Shown: piece by piece, positions 24,623 to 45,039 of the stretch
How the letters are laid out: the number at the start of each line of letters is the position of its first letter
Position numbering within the stretch: the first letter of the stretch is position 1
Assembly: GCF_016865425.1 (NCBI RefSeq)
Contig: NZ_AP023355.1
Span: forward strand, 2,044,198 to 2,108,197
Direction: 5' to 3'
Origin: Actinocatenispora thailandica
Lineage (GTDB): Bacteria > Actinomycetota > Actinomycetes > Mycobacteriales > Micromonosporaceae
DNA length: 64,000 bases
The notes under the pieces: generated by a model
Databases searched by the model: none
Told to the model about the DNA's origin: nothing
What the model saw: only the letters and a program-made list of their open reading frames with translations
Translations under genes and position numbers: made by a program

Positions 24623-25278
24623 CCGCGGCCGGGCCAGCCGGGCCAGTCGGGGTCACCCGGGGTCAGCCGGGGTCAGCCGGGGTCAGCCGGGGTCAGCCGG
24701 GGGGCAGCCGGGGGCGGTGCGGGCACCGGCGGCAGCTGCGGTCCACCTCCGCCGCTCGCATCGGGAGTAGCCGGCGGGCGGGCCGCGGGTCGTCCTCCCC
24801 GCGTCCCGCGACCCGCCCGACCCCACCCCCGAGGTGCGCGCCGGACACACCCCAGCCGCGCCCGGCGCGCTGTCCATACACGCCTCACCCCGGCGGTCGG
24901 CTGCGACCCGCGGTGCCCGAATCGCCGGCCGATGACGGCCGCGCGCTGCGGCGCTCACCGAGCGTGATGTTTGGGTCGGTTCCGCCCGGATCGGCGGCGC
25001 GTCGCTGGTCACCCAGCGCATCTGGTACTAAGCTGCCGTCTCCAACGCCCGGCGCGGCCCGGGTCCGGACGACTCGGTGCAGAGCCGCCCCGACGCGCCC
25101 CGCCGCCGCGCGATTCACGCCGACGCCCATCGAAGCGGCCCCGCCGATGCGATCGCCGGCCGTACCGGATCGACCGGTGCGGCCCACCGACCGACCGCGC
25201 ACGGCCCGACACGCCCCGATGAGCGCCAGCCCGCCGCGCCGTCCCCACGCGTGGCGGTCACCTCGGGAGGGTCTGCCG
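24623..25278. other. 656-base stretch without a supported gene
   Basis: It starts with a 10-bp tandem repeat and continues as GC-rich sequence with open frames on several strands. Their translations are Arg/Pro/Ala-rich and show no domain, credible ribosome site or codon periodicity that I trust. The last 15 bases carry the ribosome site of the next small gene. Confidence 0.6.
24641..24710. repeat. 10-bp tandem repeat
   Basis: Four exact copies of GGTCAGCCGG at 24661-24700 are flanked by degenerate units (GGCCAGTCGG, GGTCACCCGG and GGGGCAGCCG). It starts 18 bases after the stop of the propeller gene. Confidence 0.9.
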
Positions 25279-32730: not shown

Positions 32731-34206
32731 ATGGCCGACCGTCGGGCCCGGGTGCTCGTGGCGCTGGTGCTGACCATGGGGCTGGCCGCGATGGACACCA
32801 CGATCGTGGCGACCGCGCTGCCCTCGGTGGTGGCGGACCTGGGCGGCCGACACCTGTTCGCCTGGGTGTTCTCCACCTACCTGCTGGCGCAGACGGTGAC
32901 CATCCCGCTGTACGGCAAGCTCGCCGACCTGTACGGGCGCAAGCCGGTGCTGATCGCCGGGGTGGCCACGTTCCTCGCGGCCTCCGCCGCCTGCGCGGCG
33001 GCACCGAGCATGCTGGCGCTGATCGTGTTCCGCGGCATCCAGGGCCTCGGCGCCGGGTCGATCCAGGCGACCGTCGCGACCGTCGCCGGTGACCTCTACA
33101 CGATCGCCGAACGCGGCCGGGTGCAGGGCTGGCTGTCCAGCGTGTGGGGCATCTCGGCGCTGGTCGGGCCGGCCGCCGGCGGGCTGTTCAGCCAGTACGT
33201 CTCGTGGCGGTGGATCTTCCTGATCAACCTGCCGCTCGGCGGCTTCGCGCTCTGGATGCTGCTCCGCCACCTGACCGAACGCATCGAGCGGAAGCGGCAC
33301 CGGATCGACTACGCCGGTGCCGCGCTGATCCTCGGTGCCACCGCCGCGCTGATCGTCGGGCTGCTGTCCGGTGACAGCCGGTGGCCGTGGCTGTCGGCTC
33401 CCGGCATCGGCGTGTTCGGCGTCGCGGCGGTACTCACCGGGGTGGCCGTGGTGGTCGAACGGCATGCGGCCGAGCCGGTGCTGCCGGGCTGGCTGTGGAC
33501 CCGCCGCACCCTGGTCGGCGCGAACCTGACCATGGTCGTACTGGGGCTGATCGTGATCGGGATGAACACCGTGCTGCCCAGCTACGCGCAGCAGGTGTCC
33601 GGGTTGTCGCCGACCGCGGCCGGGTTCGTGCTCGCCGCGATGAGCATCACCTGGCCGATCTCCTCCAGCCTGTCCAACCGGCTGTACCTGCGGATCGGGT
33701 TCCGGGACACCGCCCTGGCCGGCACCCTGCTGGTGGTGCTCGCCACCGGCGTGCTGGTCCTGGTGCCGCCGAGCGGGCCGGCCTGGCAGCTGGTGGTCGC
33801 GACCGTGGTGATGGGCGGCGGTTTCGGGCTGATGTCCACCTCGATGCTGGTCGGCACCCAGTCCACGGTGGACTACGGCCGGCGCGGCGTGGTCACCGGC
33901 GGCACGATGTTCGGCCGCTACCTCGGTCAGAGCATCGGCGCCGCGGTGTACGCGGCGATCAGCAACGCCAGCCTGTCCGCCGCGCTGACCAGGCCGGTAC
34001 CCGACCTGGGCCCGGTGCCCCGGCAGGTCGACGGCATCGGCCGGGCGCTCGCGGCCGACCCGCGGTCGGCGGTCGCGCACTACCTGCGGGCCGCCGTGCA
34101 CACCGCGAGCCACCAGGTGTTCCTGGCGCTGCTGGGTACCGCGGTCCTCGGCGTCGGCTGTGTTCTGATCGCCCCGCGCCGCTTTCCCGTCCGCGACGAC
34201 CGGTGA
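32731..34206 (+). CDS. MFS drug exporter, DHA2 (EmrB/QacA) family
   Basis: 491 residues with GGAGA before the ATG. The first helix holds the DHA2 motif LTMGLAAMDTTIVATALPSV. Motif A is GKLADLYGRKPV and motif C is the GISALVGPAAGGLFSQYVSW region. The hydrophobicity pattern fits 14 membrane helices, one set after the central loop DYAGAALILGATAALIVGLL. Proton-driven export of lipophilic cations or antibiotics is the usual role. It has no adjacent TetR or MarR regulator and is convergent with the nitroreductase gene. Confidence 0.93.
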   Translation: MADRRARVLVALVLTMGLAAMDTTIVATALPSVVADLGGRHLFAWVFSTYLLAQTVTIPLYGKLADLYGRKPVLIAGVATFLAASAACAAAPSMLALIVFRGIQGLGAGSIQATVATVAGDLYTIAERGRVQGWLSSVWGISALVGPAAGGLFSQYVSWRWIFLINLPLGGFALWMLLRHLTERIERKRHRIDYAGAALILGATAALIVGLLSGDSRWPWLSAPGIGVFGVAAVLTGVAVVVERHAAEPVLPGWLWTRRTLVGANLTMVVLGLIVIGMNTVLPSYAQQVSGLSPTAAGFVLAAMSITWPISSSLSNRLYLRIGFRDTALAGTLLVVLATGVLVLVPPSGPAWQLVVATVVMGGGFGLMSTSMLVGTQSTVDYGRRGVVTGGTMFGRYLGQSIGAAVYAAISNASLSAALTRPVPDLGPVPRQVDGIGRALAADPRSAVAHYLRAAVHTASHQVFLALLGTAVLGVGCVLIAPRRFPVRDDR

Positions 34207-39534: not shown

Positions 39535-40380
39535 TCAGCGGCGGCGGGCGTGCAGGACGAGCATCCCGTCGTCGCCGTAGGCCGGCAGGGTGTCGTCACG
39601 CGGGACGGCGACGATCTCCAGGTCGTCGACCAGCGGCTCGAACACGTCGTGCAGGATCTCGGCGGTCACCGGCAGGCCGGGCCAGACCGACCCGTCGCCG
39701 AGCCGGTAGGTGGGCATCCCCGCCATGAACGCCGCGACCAGCCACCCGGCCGGCCGCACCGCGGCGACGAAGCCGGCACACAGCGACCGGAACTCGTCCT
39801 CCTCGGCGGTCACGCTCTCCGCGACGAAGTGCATCGACGCCAGGTCGTACGGCGGGGCCGGCGGCGCGGTCAGCGGCGCGCGGTGCACCTGCACCACCGA
39901 CAGCGCCTGCCGCATGGTCGCCGGCAGTGCCGGGTCGAGCCGCCGGCACTCCGCGTAGAACGGCTGCCAGCTCGGCTCCGGCCCGTCGGCCAGCGTGCGC
40001 CGCAGGTACGCCACCCCGGCGGCGCCCGGCTCGACCGCGTCGATGTGCCGGCTGGCCGCCGCGGCCAGCAGCAGCGGGTACAGGTTGGGCCCGGCGCCGA
40101 GCTCCACGGTGCGCTCCAGCGAGCCGGGCTCGATCCGCCGGTACAGCGCGGAGTGCGCGGCGATCACCGCCGCGTCGCTGGGGTGCAGGGTGCGGTAGTT
40201 CTCGGCCAGGTACTGCTCGACCGGCCACGCGTCCCAGTCCGCGTCGGCGTTGCGCCGCGGCGCGGCGTCCTGCGCACCCTGCCGCGGCGCGGCGTCCTGC
40301 GCCCCCTGCCGCGGCGTGGCGCCGCCAGTACCGGGGGCTGTCGTGGCGTCGTGCGCGCCGGGCCGTGATTGCGCTGTCAT
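39535..40380 (-). CDS. SAM-dependent methyltransferase (NNMT/PNMT-like), partner of AONS-like enzyme
   Basis: 281 residues. The ATG overlaps the stop of the upstream AONS-like gene, so the two are co-translated. The first 45 residues are a repeat-built linker (RQGAQDAAP twice). The methyltransferase domain starts at WPVEQYLAENYRTLHP, then the SAM loop VELGAGPNLYPLLLAAAAS and IDAVEPGAAGV, and later PYDLASMHFVAESVTAEEDE. This layout matches small-molecule N- or O-methyltransferases of the NNMT/PNMT/TEMT type, also found in Streptomyces clusters. It likely methylates the product of its AONS-like partner; the molecule is unknown. Confidence 0.85.
   Translation of the reverse strand: MTAQSRPGAHDATTAPGTGGATPRQGAQDAAPRQGAQDAAPRRNADADWDAWPVEQYLAENYRTLHPSDAAVIAAHSALYRRIEPGSLERTVELGAGPNLYPLLLAAAASRHIDAVEPGAAGVAYLRRTLADGPEPSWQPFYAECRRLDPALPATMRQALSVVQVHRAPLTAPPAPPYDLASMHFVAESVTAEEDEFRSLCAGFVAAVRPAGWLVAAFMAGMPTYRLGDGSVWPGLPVTAEILHDVFEPLVDDLEIVAVPRDDTLPAYGDDGMLVLHARRR
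40254..40320 (-). repeat. 27-bp tandem repeat in the methyltransferase gene
   Basis: Two 27-base copies at 40254-40280 and 40281-40307, differing at one base, then a partial third. In the gene's frame each encodes RQGAQDAAP. The period is a multiple of three, so copy-number change would keep the frame. Confidence 0.85.
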
Positions 40381-41537
40381 GCCTGCTCCCGGGGCAGTTC
40401 GAAGCGGTCGGCGAGTTCGATCAGGACCGCGTTCAGCTCGTCGATCTCGGCGTCGGTGTTGGCCGCGGTGACCTGGATCCGCACGCCCACCTCGTCCCGC
40501 GGTACCAGCGGGTACGGCGCGAGCGTGACGTAGATGCCGCGGTCGAACAGGAACTGGCCCACCTCGGCGATTCCCGCGGCGCCGATCGGCAGCTCGATCA
40601 CCGGCAGCCCGCTGCGGTTCGGCGTGACCAGCCCGAGCGTGCGGACGGTGTCGAGCACCCGGGCGGTGCGCCGGTACAGGTCGGCGCGCAGCGCGTCGCC
40701 GCGCCGCTCGTTGACGTCCAGCCCGGCGAGCACGGTGGCCAGCGACGCGGTCGGCGACGGCCCGGAGTACAGGTACGGCGCGGCGGCGACCTTCAGGTGC
40801 TCCTTGACCGCCGTGGGCAGCGCCAGGAACGCCAGCAGTGACGAGTACGCCTTGGAACAGCCGCCGACGAGGATCACGTGGTCGTAGCCGACGTCCAGGT
40901 GGCGCAGCACGCTGTTGCCGCGCATCCCGTACGGGCTGGTCTCGCCGGGCCGCCGCTCGCCGACCACGCCGAACCCGTGCGCGTCGTCGACGTAGCAGGT
41001 GGCGTCGTACTGCGCGCAGACCGCGGCGATGTCGGCGAGGTCCGGCAGGTTGCCGGTCATGCTGTTGACGCCGTCCAGGCAGACCAGGCGGGGGGCGGCG
41101 GCGTCGCGCAGCGCGGCGCGCAGCGCGTCCAGGTCCTCGGCGCGGAACCGGCGCAGGGTGGCGCCGGTGGTGGTCGCCGCCTTCGCCGCGTCGTACAGCG
41201 AGCGGTGCCCGCGTGCCTCCACGAACACGGTGCCGCCGGCGGCGAGCGCCGGGATCACCGCGTCGTGGATCAGCGTGATGGTGGGCAGGGCGAGCACGTC
41301 CGGCGCGTGCAGCAGTTCGGTGAGCCGGTCCTCGATGTCGACGTAGAGCCGCGGGCTGCCGAGCAGCCGGGACCAGCTCGGGTGGGTGCCCCAGCGGCGC
41401 ACCGCCGGTTCGATCGCGGCCTGGATCTCCGGATCGAGATCGAAGCCGAGGTAGTTGCAGGAGGCGAAGTCGGTCAGCCAGTGGTCGCCGATCCGGATGC
41501 GGCGGCCGTCGATCTCGTCGATCACCGCGTCGCACAT
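40377..41537 (-). CDS. AONS-like PLP-dependent alpha-oxoamine synthase/aminotransferase
   Basis: 386 residues as written from ATG 41537, but the true start is probably ATG 41593. That start, with GGAAGGAA before it, reads MALP and then STRWPDLTELQRSHP into MCDAVIDEID if one C is added to the run at 41583-41585 (405 residues). Motifs of 8-amino-7-oxononanoate synthase-like enzymes follow: FASCNYLGFDLDPEI, THPSWSRLLGSPRLYVDIED, the cofactor Asp in CYVDDAHGFGVVG and the Schiff-base Lys in VGGCSKAYSSLLAF. These enzymes condense an amino acid with an acyl-CoA to give an aminoketone. No biotin genes are nearby. The stop overlaps the methyltransferase start (ATGA). Confidence 0.88.
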   Translation of the reverse strand: MCDAVIDEIDGRRIRIGDHWLTDFASCNYLGFDLDPEIQAAIEPAVRRWGTHPSWSRLLGSPRLYVDIEDRLTELLHAPDVLALPTITLIHDAVIPALAAGGTVFVEARGHRSLYDAAKAATTTGATLRRFRAEDLDALRAALRDAAAPRLVCLDGVNSMTGNLPDLADIAAVCAQYDATCYVDDAHGFGVVGERRPGETSPYGMRGNSVLRHLDVGYDHVILVGGCSKAYSSLLAFLALPTAVKEHLKVAAAPYLYSGPSPTASLATVLAGLDVNERRGDALRADLYRRTARVLDTVRTLGLVTPNRSGLPVIELPIGAAGIAEVGQFLFDRGIYVTLAPYPLVPRDEVGVRIQVTAANTDAEIDELNAVLIELADRFELPREQA

Positions 41538-41607
41538 CGGGTGGGAGCGCTGCAGTTCGGTCAGGTCCGGCCAGCGGGTCGAGGGAGGGCCATGGCGTTC
41601 CTTCCTG

Positions 41608-41687
41608 GTCTTCGGGCGCCGTCTTCGGTCGCCGTCTTCGGTGCCGGTCTTCGGCGTCGGTCGTCGGTTGCCGGTCGTCGGTCATCG
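41608..41687. repeat. 13-14-bp degenerate tandem repeat between GGDEF-EAL and AONS-like genes
   Basis: Six units, all starting GTCTTCGG or GTCGTCGG, at 41608, 41621, 41634, 41647, 41660 and 41674. They lie on the upstream side of the AONS-like gene and end at the stop of the GGDEF-EAL gene. They would make a C/A-rich leader in the minus-strand transcript. Confidence 0.8.
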
Positions 41688-44600
41688 GTCGTTGGAGGCG
41701 GTGAGCATCCGCTCGGCCTCGCCGGGCGGCACCGGCTTGGAGAACAGGTAGCCCTGGCCGAAGCCGCAGCCGATCTCGATGAGCAGGTCGCGCTGCTGCG
41801 CGGTCTCGATGCCTTCGGCGATCAGCTGGACCCCGAACGTGTCGGTGATCCGGATGATGCCCTCCAACAGCCGCAGGTCCTGCTGGCTGCTGGTGATCCC
41901 GCGGACGAACGACTTGTCGATCTTGATCACGTCGATCGGCAGCTCGCGCAGGTAGCTCAGCGACGAGTACCCGGTGCCGAAGTCGTCGATGGCCAGCCGT
42001 ACCCCGAGCGACTTCAACGCGCGCAGGTCGGTTTCGATCTTGTCGTGCCGGCCCATCAGCACGCTCTCGGTCAGCTCCAGTACCAGCGCCTCGCCGGGTA
42101 GCTGTGCCGACTCCAGCGCGGTGTGCACCCCGGCGACGAACCCGCCGTCGTGCAACTGCCGGGCCGAGACGTTGACGCTCACGTACGGTGGGGTCGACCA
42201 GTCGGTGCGACGCCGCCAGCCGGCCAGGTCCGCGGTGGCCCGCTGCAGCACCCAGGCGCCCAGCTGCACGATGTGGCCGGTCTCTTCGGCGAGCGTGATG
42301 AACCGTTCCGGCAGGACGACGCCGTGCCGCCGGGTGGGCCAGCGGGCGAGCGCCTCCATCGCCACGATCCGGTCGTCCGCGAGCTCCACGATGGGCTGGT
42401 AGCGCAGCCGGAACTCGTCGGAGCGGACCGCCTCCTCCAGCTGCGCCGACAGTGCCCGGCTCTCCAGCATCCCGGTGTGCAGCTCCGGCTGGAACCGGCA
42501 CCACTGGCGGCGGCCGGCGGCCTTCGCCGCGTACACCGCGAGGTCGGCGTGCCGCAACATCTCGTCGACGTCGCCGGACTCGGCCGAGGTGGCGATCCCG
42601 ACACTCGCGGTGGCGCGGGTGGTGCCGTCGGTCAGGGTGTACGGCAGGGCCAGCGTGTCGGTGAGCCCGGCGGCGATGCGTTCCACGTCGGCCACCGAGT
42701 CGACGTCCTCCAGCAGCAGCGCGAACTCGTCGCCGCCGAGCCGGGCCGCGGTGTCGGAGCCCCGGACCGATCCGGACAGCCGGTTCGCGACCGCCACCAG
42801 CAGCCCGTCGCCGGCCGAGTGCCCCAGCGTGTCGTTGACGATCTTGAAGTCGTCCAGGTCGACGAACATCACCGCGGCGAGCTTGCCGGTACGCCGGGCG
42901 CGGGCCAGCGCGTGCGCGACGCGGTCGGCGAACAGCGGCCGGTTCGCCAGGCCGGTCAGCGGGTCGTGGAACGCGCGGTGCCGCAGCTCGGCCTCCAGCC
43001 GGCGGCGCGCGGTGACGTCGCGCAGTGTCAGTACCAACCCGCGTACGGTCGGGTCGGCCCGCAGGTTGGCGTACCGCACCTCCCAGAAGACCTCGCCGTC
43101 CTGGTCCGCGCTCAGCCGCCACTCCTCGTGCCCCTCGGCCGAGTCGTACGCGCGCATCCGACCCAGCGAGGCGATCACCCGGCTGCGGTCGGTGGTGCCG
43201 ACGAGCTCGGGCAGCAGCTGGCCGGGCAGCGGCGGTTCCCCGAACATCGTCGCGGCCGACGGGCTCGCGTACCGCACGGTGTCGCCCTCGTCGACGATCA
43301 GGATGACGTCGAACGAGTTGTGCACCAGGGTGCGGAAGTACGCCTCGCTCTTGCGCCGGCCGACCTCCTCGGCGAGGTCGACCCGCCCCACCGCGAGCGC
43401 GACCTGCGCGGCGAGGGTCTCCAGGGCGTCCTGGCTGGCGGCGAGCGCCGCGCGGTCGGCGCCGACGGCCAGCACACCGGACGCCTGGGGCCGCGCCTCC
43501 TCCCGGGGCAGCGCGCACAGCAGTACGCAGTCCGAGCCGCGGAACCGGTCCGCCAGCATCTCCGGAAGCTCGCCGGTCGGCACGATCGTGGTGCCGGCGT
43601 GGCCCAGCGCGACGTCGCGGACCACCGGGATCGAACCGCGCCGCCAGACCAGCGGGTCGGGATCGCCGGTGACCTCGATGACCTGCTCGCCCCGGTGCAC
43701 CGCGGCGAGCGAGCGGTGCGGTGCGCCGGCCGGTACCAGGCGGTCGACCGCCTCCCGCAACCGGTCGCAGATCTGGCCGTGGTCGAGCGCGCCGACCAGG
43801 TCGGCCGCGGAGCTGCGCAGCGCGCGTTCGCGCTCCACCGCCCGCCGGTGCGTCCGGACCACCCCGGCCAGCCGCAGGATGACCAGCGTGAACAGCACGA
43901 TCGTCGCGCCGATGCCGGCCCGGACGAAGGACTGGTCGTGGATGATCACCTCGACCAGCAGCAGCACCGGCGGGATCAGCGCCGCGGCGCTGATCATGAT
44001 CAGCCGGGACAGCGGCAGCAGACCGGCCGGCCTGGGTGGTAGTTGCTCGGTGAGGCCCACCATCGACGGCCACAGGGCGGCCAGCCCCACGCCCAGTAGA
44101 ACAGCAGCCAGCCGACGTCGATCGCGCTGCCGACCGCCCAGTGCCCGTTGAGCTGTAACAGTCCGTACGCGACGTCGGAGCCGAGGATGCCGGCGGTGCC
44201 GATGGTCAGCAGCCGCACCGACGGGTTGCGGGTGCCGTCGGGCGAGAACACCAGCCGGGCCAGCATCAGCAGCATCAGCACGTCACCCAGCGGGTACGCC
44301 ATGGCGGTGATCCGGTTGAGCGGATCGTGCTCGGCGCGCAGCGGCTGGATCAGGAACACCCAGGACAGCAGGCCGACGCCGCCGGTGACGATCAGTGCGT
44401 CGATCACCGCACCCAGGTCGCGACCGGTGCGGTACCGGTTGAAACCGGCGAGACCGATCGCGAACAGCGGATAGGTCGCGAGGTACAGCACGTCGGCGGC
44501 CGACGGGAACGGGTTGACCGCGCCGAAGTAGGTGGTCAGCACGTTGTAGACGGTGTCGCCGGAGCTGTAGGCGAGGTTGGCCGCGGCCAGCAGCAGCCAC

Positions 44601-44785
44601 GGCCAGATCCGCGCCGGCCGGTACAGCACGATGCCGGCGATGATGCCGCCCACGCAGCTGAGCCCGATCAGCCCCCACGTGACCAGGTGCCAGTCGGGGC
44701 GGGCGAAGTAGCCGGCGGCGAGCACGGCCATCCACGCCGAGTAACCGGCGGCCAGCCGCCAGGTCAGCTCCGGCCGTGCGGCCAT
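41682..44785 (-). pseudogene. GGDEF-EAL cyclic-di-GMP enzyme with membrane, GAF and PAS regions; frameshifted by one base
   Basis: The 5' part from ATG 44785 encodes about eight membrane helices (LVTWGLIGLSCVGGIIAGIV, VLYLATYPLFAIGLAGFN) and breaks at the CCCC of 44085-44088. The next frame continues GLAALWPSMVGLTEQLPPRP. One extra base gives 1034 residues: two more helices to about 310, GAF-like 320-470, PAS 480-595 (FDVILIVDEGDTVRYASPSA), GGDEF 597-757 with intact GGDEF, and EAL 770-1028 with intact EAL, ELTES, DDFGTGYSS and AEGIETAQQ. Both synthesis and hydrolysis residues are therefore present. It sits directly upstream of the AONS-like gene on the same strand, 88 bases away. Probably intact in the cell. 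Confidence 0.9.
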
Positions 44786-45039
44786 CTGCCACCCCCCGAC
44801 GCCGGCTGCCGGTGCCACCGCGGGCGGCACCGGTGGAAGCCCACGATACGCCCGGCTTCCACCACGGAACGTTATCTCTCCCGGCGCTGGAGCGTCCTGC
44901 TACGCGCCCGCGGCCACGGACATCACACGCGTCCCGGCGCCGCGGATGCGCCAAGATCGTCTACCTGCCGTAGAAGTGGAGGCGGCGCCGGCGCGTCGAG
45001 TGTCGTGATTCCTGCCGGCTGGCCGGGCCGGGCGGCCCG

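Follow-up and report, generated by a model that had tools for sequence, protein, structure and literature searches.

Linkage of a CdgF-type cyclic di-GMP enzyme with an alpha-oxoamine synthase-like protein in Actinocatenispora thailandica and other Actinomycetota, and their fusion in Streptomycetaceae

The DNA analyzed here is a stretch of 64,000 nucleotides from the soil actinobacterium Actinocatenispora thailandica (NZ_AP023355.1; genome of 7,426,695 bp in one contig), referred to below as the window. Its minus strand carries, in this order, a gene for a membrane PAS-GGDEF-EAL enzyme of cyclic di-GMP (c-di-GMP) turnover of the type of CdgF from Streptomyces venezuelae, a gene for a protein resembling alpha-oxoamine synthases (AONS), and a gene for a methyltransferase dependent on S-adenosylmethionine (SAM). 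A CdgF-type GGDEF-EAL gene was found linked to the AONS gene in 99 of 104 loci, and in 50 loci the two are fused. We consider it moderately probable that this cassette is a small-molecule module coupled to c-di-GMP, in which a membrane CdgF-type enzyme is tied to the synthesis of an alpha-aminoketone that is then N-methylated or exported. This reading is based on the linkage, the fusion, the intact catalytic motifs, the predicted fold of the methyltransferase, and the family of the transporter found in other cassettes.

Linkage and fusion of the GGDEF-EAL and AONS genes

Searches with the AONS protein alone gave matches in 12 of 61 genomes of relatives (the genome of the window counted), in 29 of 199 Streptomyces genomes (counting the centre genome, picked for having the cassette), and in 22 of 396 genomes of Actinomycetota (again with the window's own genome counted). 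Relatives of AONS in the genome collection amounted to 443, the best 80 of which were used. Genus mates among the relatives are A. comari and A. rupis. No plasmid-borne cassette was found in PLSDB at an E value of 1e-60. Neighborhoods were read in 104 nonredundant AONS loci, the window included, comprising 59 from Streptomycetaceae, 29 from Micromonosporaceae, and 16 others; duplicate loci (L038, L045, L046, L133, L139, and L145) and short loci (L001 to L036, L129 to L131, L140 to L144, and L156 to L157) were left out of the counts. Family labels were assigned by the analyst, gene calls were made from homology and open frames, and some stretches stop at contig ends.

The linkage occurred in three gene orders. 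In 90 of the 104 loci the GGDEF-EAL gene was located upstream on the same strand, ending at most 0.5 kb from AONS, while in 6 it started at most 1.2 kb downstream and in 3 it was divergent within 2 kb. In three other loci (L070, L146, and L151) it was weak, partial, or distant, and it was not found in two of the stretches read, namely those of a second copy (L041) and of a fragment (L048). The former belongs to a genome (G012) in which two AONS copies lie approximately 25 kb apart; one of them, L040, is accompanied by two tandem CdgF-type genes, and no CdgF-type gene was found in the stretch read around the other, L041.

In 50 of the 59 Streptomycetaceae loci, the EAL domain runs into AONS in frame and without a stop codon, through links of 16 to 76 residues. 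Fusion was observed in none of the 45 loci outside this family, the Actinocatenispora cassettes consisting of two separate genes. The only fused protein scanned with Pfam (1,495 amino acids) contained PAS, GGDEF, EAL, and Aminotran_1_2 domains. As a control, the genome of the window was found to have 26 Aminotran_1_2 and 14 GGDEF matches, and comparison of their coordinates placed a single Aminotran_1_2 match, the cassette AONS, within 6 kb of any GGDEF match. The sequence-only reading of the window had pointed to a same-strand GGDEF-EAL gene directly upstream of AONS, which Pfam confirmed, and had raised the possibility of a signaling cassette; the linkage seen in 99 of the 104 loci and the fusion seen in 50 make that possibility much stronger than first proposed.

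Correspondence with CdgF of Streptomyces venezuelae

One of the fused frames lies in a Streptomyces genome (G083) with a chromosome of 8,223,505 bp, whose GGDEF genes are located at 488, 2843, 4336, 4369, 4956, 5579, 5605, and 7477 kb. The chromosomal GGDEF genes tabulated for S. venezuelae are cdgF (02140), cdgA (12760), cdgD (19760), cdgB (19920), cdgE (22740), rmdB (25525), cdgC (25635), and rmdA (33675) (PMC6205966, Table 1). The positions follow these eight tags in order and spacing, at 0.218 to 0.228 kb per tag unit, and on the basis of this matching map we took the genome as S. venezuelae and the fused frame at the cdgF position, which has 1,647 codons between stops, to be cdgF (vnz02140/sven0451).

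The published domain organization of CdgF is 10TM-PAS-PAC-GGDEF-EAL, and a FLAG-tagged version was recovered in the membrane fraction only (PMC6205966). The window resembles it in the membrane helices and in the PAS, GGDEF, and EAL domains, but has AONS as a separate gene. In the accessible portions of PMC6205966, PMC13232838, and PMC12096830 neither the C-terminal AONS domain of CdgF nor the adjacent methyltransferase is mentioned. In the literature searched, which did not extend to subscription papers or supplements, we found no paper that joins GGDEF with an oxoamine synthase, nor one that brings GGDEF, EAL, and Streptomyces together with 8-amino-7-oxononanoate synthase; of four papers that contain both GGDEF and 8-amino-7-oxononanoate, none has a title on a fusion of this kind. 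The cdgF locus tags were found in a single paper. The function of CdgF was still to be defined as of 2026 (PMC13232838), two RNase mutants have raised cdgF transcript levels while their hyphae fragment (PMC12096830), and Streptomyces development and natural product output are under c-di-GMP control (PMC6205966, PMC7026642). The present analysis gives CdgF partner genes, a predicted class of product, and a catalytic domain for which no prior description was found.

Family and active site of the AONS-like protein

The AONS protein matched the Pfam family Aminotran_1_2 with 89 bits, and its scores were far below the cut-offs of all the specific models tried. Thus, it reached approximately 166 bits with the bioF model (TIGR00858; cut-off of 426.45), 130.5 and 108.9 bits with the models of Kbl/glycine C-acetyltransferase (NF005394 and TIGR01822; cut-offs of 460 and 493, respectively), and 149.1 bits with a BioF/Kbl subfamily (TIGR01825; 535.4). 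Similarly, it gave 144.4, 131.9, and 97.9 bits with three serine palmitoyltransferase models (NF047599, NF047600, and NF047603; cut-offs of 500, 640, and 670, respectively), 94.3 bits with 5-aminolevulinate synthase (TIGR01821; 338.55), and 66.7 bits with CqsA/LqsA (NF005526; 428). Elsewhere in this genome, two genes come much closer to the bioF model, with 383 and 358 bits, although they too are below its cut-off. Identity with plain BioF was therefore rejected, the score being below the cut-off and better-scoring genes lying elsewhere in the genome, in agreement with the sequence-only reading, which would have been undermined by an ordinary biotin enzyme.

The catalytic center is well kept. 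Among the 104 loci, K249, D204, H131, H207, S179, and R373 are each shared by at least 97% of the sequences that cover the position, and the first five align with K236, D204, H133, H207, and S179, respectively, of Escherichia coli BioF, where these residues act as the lysine that binds pyridoxal phosphate (PLP), the aspartate, the stacking histidine, and the catalytic histidine and serine. With all of these retained, the protein was assigned to the alpha-oxoamine synthase superfamily (PLP fold type I). Its likeness to BioF and Kbl is one of fold and PLP residues, whereas the scores are far under the cut-offs and the pocket motifs are altered: two family-specific motifs, HPSWSR and LPTxTxIHxSV, replace stretches aligned to substrate-side loops of the E. 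coli enzymes. Judging from these motifs, the substrate may be unusual.

With the autoinducer synthases CqsA and LqsA the protein shares the AONS fold, a predicted condensation of an acyl group with an amino acid-type substrate, and a link to signaling, but its score places it outside their family, and CqsA chains were the three weakest of the 51 matches in the PDB (E value of approximately 5e-5).

Methyltransferase and transporter genes

The methyltransferase carries the SAM motif ExGAGPN. A profile search matched it to NNMT with an E value of 3e-5, while its score with the Pfam family NNMT_PNMT_TEMT (PF01234) was 21.8 bits, under the gathering cut-off of 25 bits, so that it does not qualify as a Pfam member. 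The score with the SCO2525 family methyltransferase model was 116 bits against a cut-off of 240 (NF040568). A predicted model of high confidence (mean predicted local distance difference test [pLDDT] score of 91.7) was compared with solved structures: the 50 Foldseek matches listed were NNMT entries, including 3rod, which is titled only Methyltransferase, and superposition on PNMT gave a Z score of 29.1 with a root mean square deviation of 2.1 over 234 aligned residues. The predicted fold is thus that of NNMT, PNMT, and INMT, but identity to the NNMT, PNMT, and INMT entries listed was only 14 to 18% and the PF01234 score is subthreshold. Since the model is closest to the amine N-methyltransferases NNMT and PNMT, an aminoketone would fit as substrate.

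The methyltransferase gene adjoins AONS in 58 of the 104 loci and lies at a greater distance in 5 more. A transporter of the MFS_3 family adjoins the AONS or the GGDEF-EAL gene in 25, in 23 of them without a methyltransferase, and lies at a greater distance in 1; the two partners are present together in 3 loci. The methyltransferase is found mainly in Streptomyces and Actinocatenispora loci, and MFS_3 takes its place in many others. The only MFS protein scanned, that of L119, matched PF05977 with 133.6 bits and was below the cut-offs of the NCBIfam efflux and EntS-like models. In a tree of the AONS proteins (102 rows, after two short rows of the 104 were dropped), the methyltransferase and MFS labels were phylogenetically clustered, the methyltransferase of L037, more than 6.5 kb away, being labeled as none. 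Actinocatenispora grouped with Streptomyces and not with other Micromonosporaceae, at an SH-aLRT value of 88 (quick method), under the mark of 95.

The sequence-only reading had treated AONS and the methyltransferase as a two-gene module and proposed to look for their co-occurrence across actinomycetes. The pair is real, both genes lying on the minus strand with a 4-bp ATGA overlap, and the two adjoin in the 58 loci mentioned; but the cassette is present in a minority of genomes (29/199 in Streptomyces and 22/396 in Actinomycetota), and the core unit is the GGDEF-EAL gene plus AONS, with the methyltransferase as a tailoring gene.

Other genes recurred in the neighborhoods. A GH15 trehalase-like protein, two glycosyltransferases, a LacI regulator, and an epimerase were not taken as parts of the cassette because they recur mainly in Streptomyces loci; the LacI group also includes the window and two genus mates. 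A GNAT acetyltransferase (Pfam scan on L039 only) is encoded close by, on the strand opposite to the cassette, in L037, L039, L093, L118, and L128, which represent two lineages, Micromonosporaceae and a pair of metagenome-assembled genomes (MAGs; L093 and L118), and is a weak lead. A luciferase-like oxidoreductase family, named from reading of the sequences, is found near eight Micromonosporaceae loci (L078, L080, L081, L099, L104, L105, L115, and L126).

GGDEF, EAL, and membrane domains

The GGDEF signature is present in the window, and at each of its positions the expected letter is found in 97 or 98 of the 98 sequences that cover it, as expected for a putative diguanylate cyclase. For its part, the EAL domain has its E, N, EE, DD, K, and E residues invariant among the 98 to 100 sequences with a letter at the position, as in a candidate phosphodiesterase. 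With the catalytic residues of GGDEF, EAL, and AONS conserved, the enzymes look active as far as alignments can tell.

Pfam scans of the A. comari and window proteins showed the CdgF organization, a multihelix membrane part followed by PAS-GGDEF-EAL, although in the window copy the frame is broken in the membrane part. In the structure predicted for the A. comari membrane part there are approximately 10 long helices; a simple hydropathy scan flagged only 6 in A. comari and 8 in the N-terminal part of the S. venezuelae protein. The membrane domain of L049 (6855 to 7907) was modeled with confidence (pLDDT of 92), and a search for solved relatives gave no PDB match by profile and a best Foldseek E value of 0.69, which rules nothing out.

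Proposed function and alternatives

In the module that we favor, a membrane PAS-GGDEF-EAL protein would be joined, by fusion or within an operon, to a PLP-dependent alpha-oxoamine synthase, which would condense an amino acid with an acyl thioester to give an alpha-aminoketone. The NNMT/PNMT-type methyltransferase of Streptomyces, Actinocatenispora, and a few other Micromonosporaceae would methylate the product, most likely on the amine, while in Actinoplanes-type loci and several other Actinomycetota the MFS_3 transporter would export it. Local c-di-GMP set by the attached cyclase and phosphodiesterase domains could control synthesis, or the state of the synthase could control c-di-GMP turnover. 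The best clue to secretion of the product is the transporter encoded next to these genes. A secreted aminoketone may be a signal, and another secreted metabolite fits equally well. If the module is as proposed, a second-messenger enzyme and a small-molecule synthase would be united within one polypeptide in the fused forms, an arrangement for which we know of no precedent.

A more specific version can be put forward only tentatively. Here the fused membrane protein would be a bifunctional aminoketone autoinducer synthase and second-messenger enzyme, with c-di-GMP gating the signal or the signal feeding back through the membrane and PAS domains; CdgF of S. venezuelae would exemplify it, and maturation and secretion of the signal would fall to the methyltransferase and the MFS transporter.

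Several observations weigh against the proposed module. The AONS pocket differs from those of E. coli BioF and Kbl (HPSWSR, LPTxTxIHxSV, and C47), so the reaction could differ too. The cassette, widespread as it is, is confined to a minority of the genomes searched (12/61, 29/199, and 22/396), and the loci sampled are biased to Streptomyces, most of them being relatives in one family. Neither methyltransferase nor MFS_3 was found in 18 of the 104 stretches read (4 from Streptomyces), some of which end at contig ends. The I-site RxxD is altered in about 17 of 98 sequences, R and D each being present in 81 of 98. The membrane domain was found in 43 of 61 genomes of relatives (E value up to 1e-15) versus 12 of 61 for AONS (E value up to 1e-60), and being commoner than the cassette it does not look like a dedicated receptor. 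In addition, S. venezuelae expresses cdgF only weakly, and no developmental phenotype followed from deleting the gene in the conditions of that study (PMC6205966).

Among the alternatives, it is conceivable but unlikely that the product is an aminolipid or a sphingoid-like component of the membrane and not a secreted small molecule, its synthesis being controlled by c-di-GMP and MFS_3 being a lipid transporter. The membrane location reported for CdgF-FLAG (PMC6205966) is consistent with such a role, as are the 98 to 144 bits obtained with the serine palmitoyltransferase models and the weak match of the one MFS protein scanned to fused acyltransferase-transporter models. However, the three serine palmitoyltransferase cut-offs were missed by a wide margin, and no pathway ketoreductase or lipid acyltransferase was seen among the seven recurrent neighbor families scanned with Pfam, smaller families lying outside the scan. 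Moreover, the NNMT/PNMT family acts on small amines.

We give somewhat less credit still to the AONS domain being a metabolite sensor, which would bind an amino acid or acyl-CoA via PLP and gate the GGDEF or EAL activity. Aminotransferase domains serve as sensors in the MocR/GabR regulators, and both the fusion of AONS to a signaling enzyme and a substrate pocket unlike those of E. coli BioF and Kbl would suit this role. Retention of the PLP and catalytic residues across the 104 loci argues for an enzyme instead, and the separate genes in all 45 loci outside Streptomycetaceae, together with a methyltransferase or MFS_3 gene adjoining in 83 of 104 loci and within approximately 10 kb in 3 more, also speak against a sensor.

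Finally, chance co-inheritance or shared regulation without functional coupling, the fusion being a single event in one family, is very improbable: the confinement of fusion to Streptomycetaceae among the loci read and the phylogenetic clustering of the partner-gene labels are compatible with it, but linkage is found in three orders across Micromonosporaceae, Streptomycetaceae, Catenulispora, an Euzebyaceae MAG, an Acidimicrobiaceae MAG, and further genomes grouping with these two MAGs in the tree, and only 1 of the 26 control Aminotran_1_2 genes adjoins a GGDEF gene.

Arrangement of the cassette in the window

The positions of the cassette features are collected in Table 1. The shared ATGA at the AONS stop and the methyltransferase start suggests translational coupling of the two genes.

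Table 1. Features of the cassette in the window
Feature	Position	Strand	Remarks
Alpha-oxoamine synthase-like (AONS) gene	40377..41593	minus	Frame read 40377..41597; first in-frame ATG at 41537
NNMT/PNMT-fold SAM methyltransferase gene (predicted)	39535..40380	minus	ATGA overlap (4 bp) with AONS stop
PAS-GGDEF-EAL part of CdgF-type membrane c-di-GMP enzyme	41682..44090	minus	Pfam; upstream of AONS
Membrane part of CdgF-type gene	44000..44830 (open reading frame)	minus	Other frame; G-run at approximately 44085-44088 one base shorter
Repeat-rich stretch from GGDEF-EAL end to AONS start	41607..41692	minus	Absent from closest mates compared (L049, L047)

Two homopolymer runs are shorter by one base in the window than in the genus mates L049 and L047. 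One is the C-run at 41583 to 41585, just after the ATG at 41593, which leaves this ATG out of frame, so the AONS entry in the list of open reading frames (ORFs) begins at 41537. The other is the G-run at approximately 44085 to 44088, which splits the membrane part from PAS-GGDEF-EAL. The occurrence of two such shortenings within one operon suggests assembly errors, and they are probably that, real lesions being also possible.

The stretch between the GGDEF-EAL and AONS genes consists of overlapping tandem repeat arrays with periods of 7, 13, and 39. The sequence-only reading had singled it out as a repeat-rich leader. The repeats are indeed present in the window, but they do not form a conserved element, since 88 nt separate the stop codon of GGDEF-EAL and the ATG at 41593 in the window, versus 29 nt in L049 and 28 nt in L047, and the link in A. 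rupis (L050) is similar in length but not in sequence. Rfam gave no match on the leader at gathering scores; with this result and the lack of conservation, a known RNA element was rejected. Similarly, a tRNA-Pro (ggg) called by ARAGORN at 41340 to 41430 on the plus strand, antisense inside the AONS gene, was taken as a probable false positive.

In accordance with the sequence-only reading, no biotin or sphingolipid genes were seen among the 13 neighboring ORFs that were scanned with Pfam, which are part of the ORFs located from 30743 to 51520. No MFS_3 relative was found with the query used within positions 25000 to 60000 of the window. An MFS_1 transporter gene lies at 32731 to 34206 on the plus strand, approximately 5 kb from the cassette, with no match to the MFS_3 transporters of other cassettes at the threshold used. 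Besides this transporter, the neighbors scanned encode a nitroreductase-like protein, a universal stress protein, an amidohydrolase, a zinc alcohol dehydrogenase, an amino acid permease, a LacI regulator, a GH2 protein, and ABC transporter subunits.

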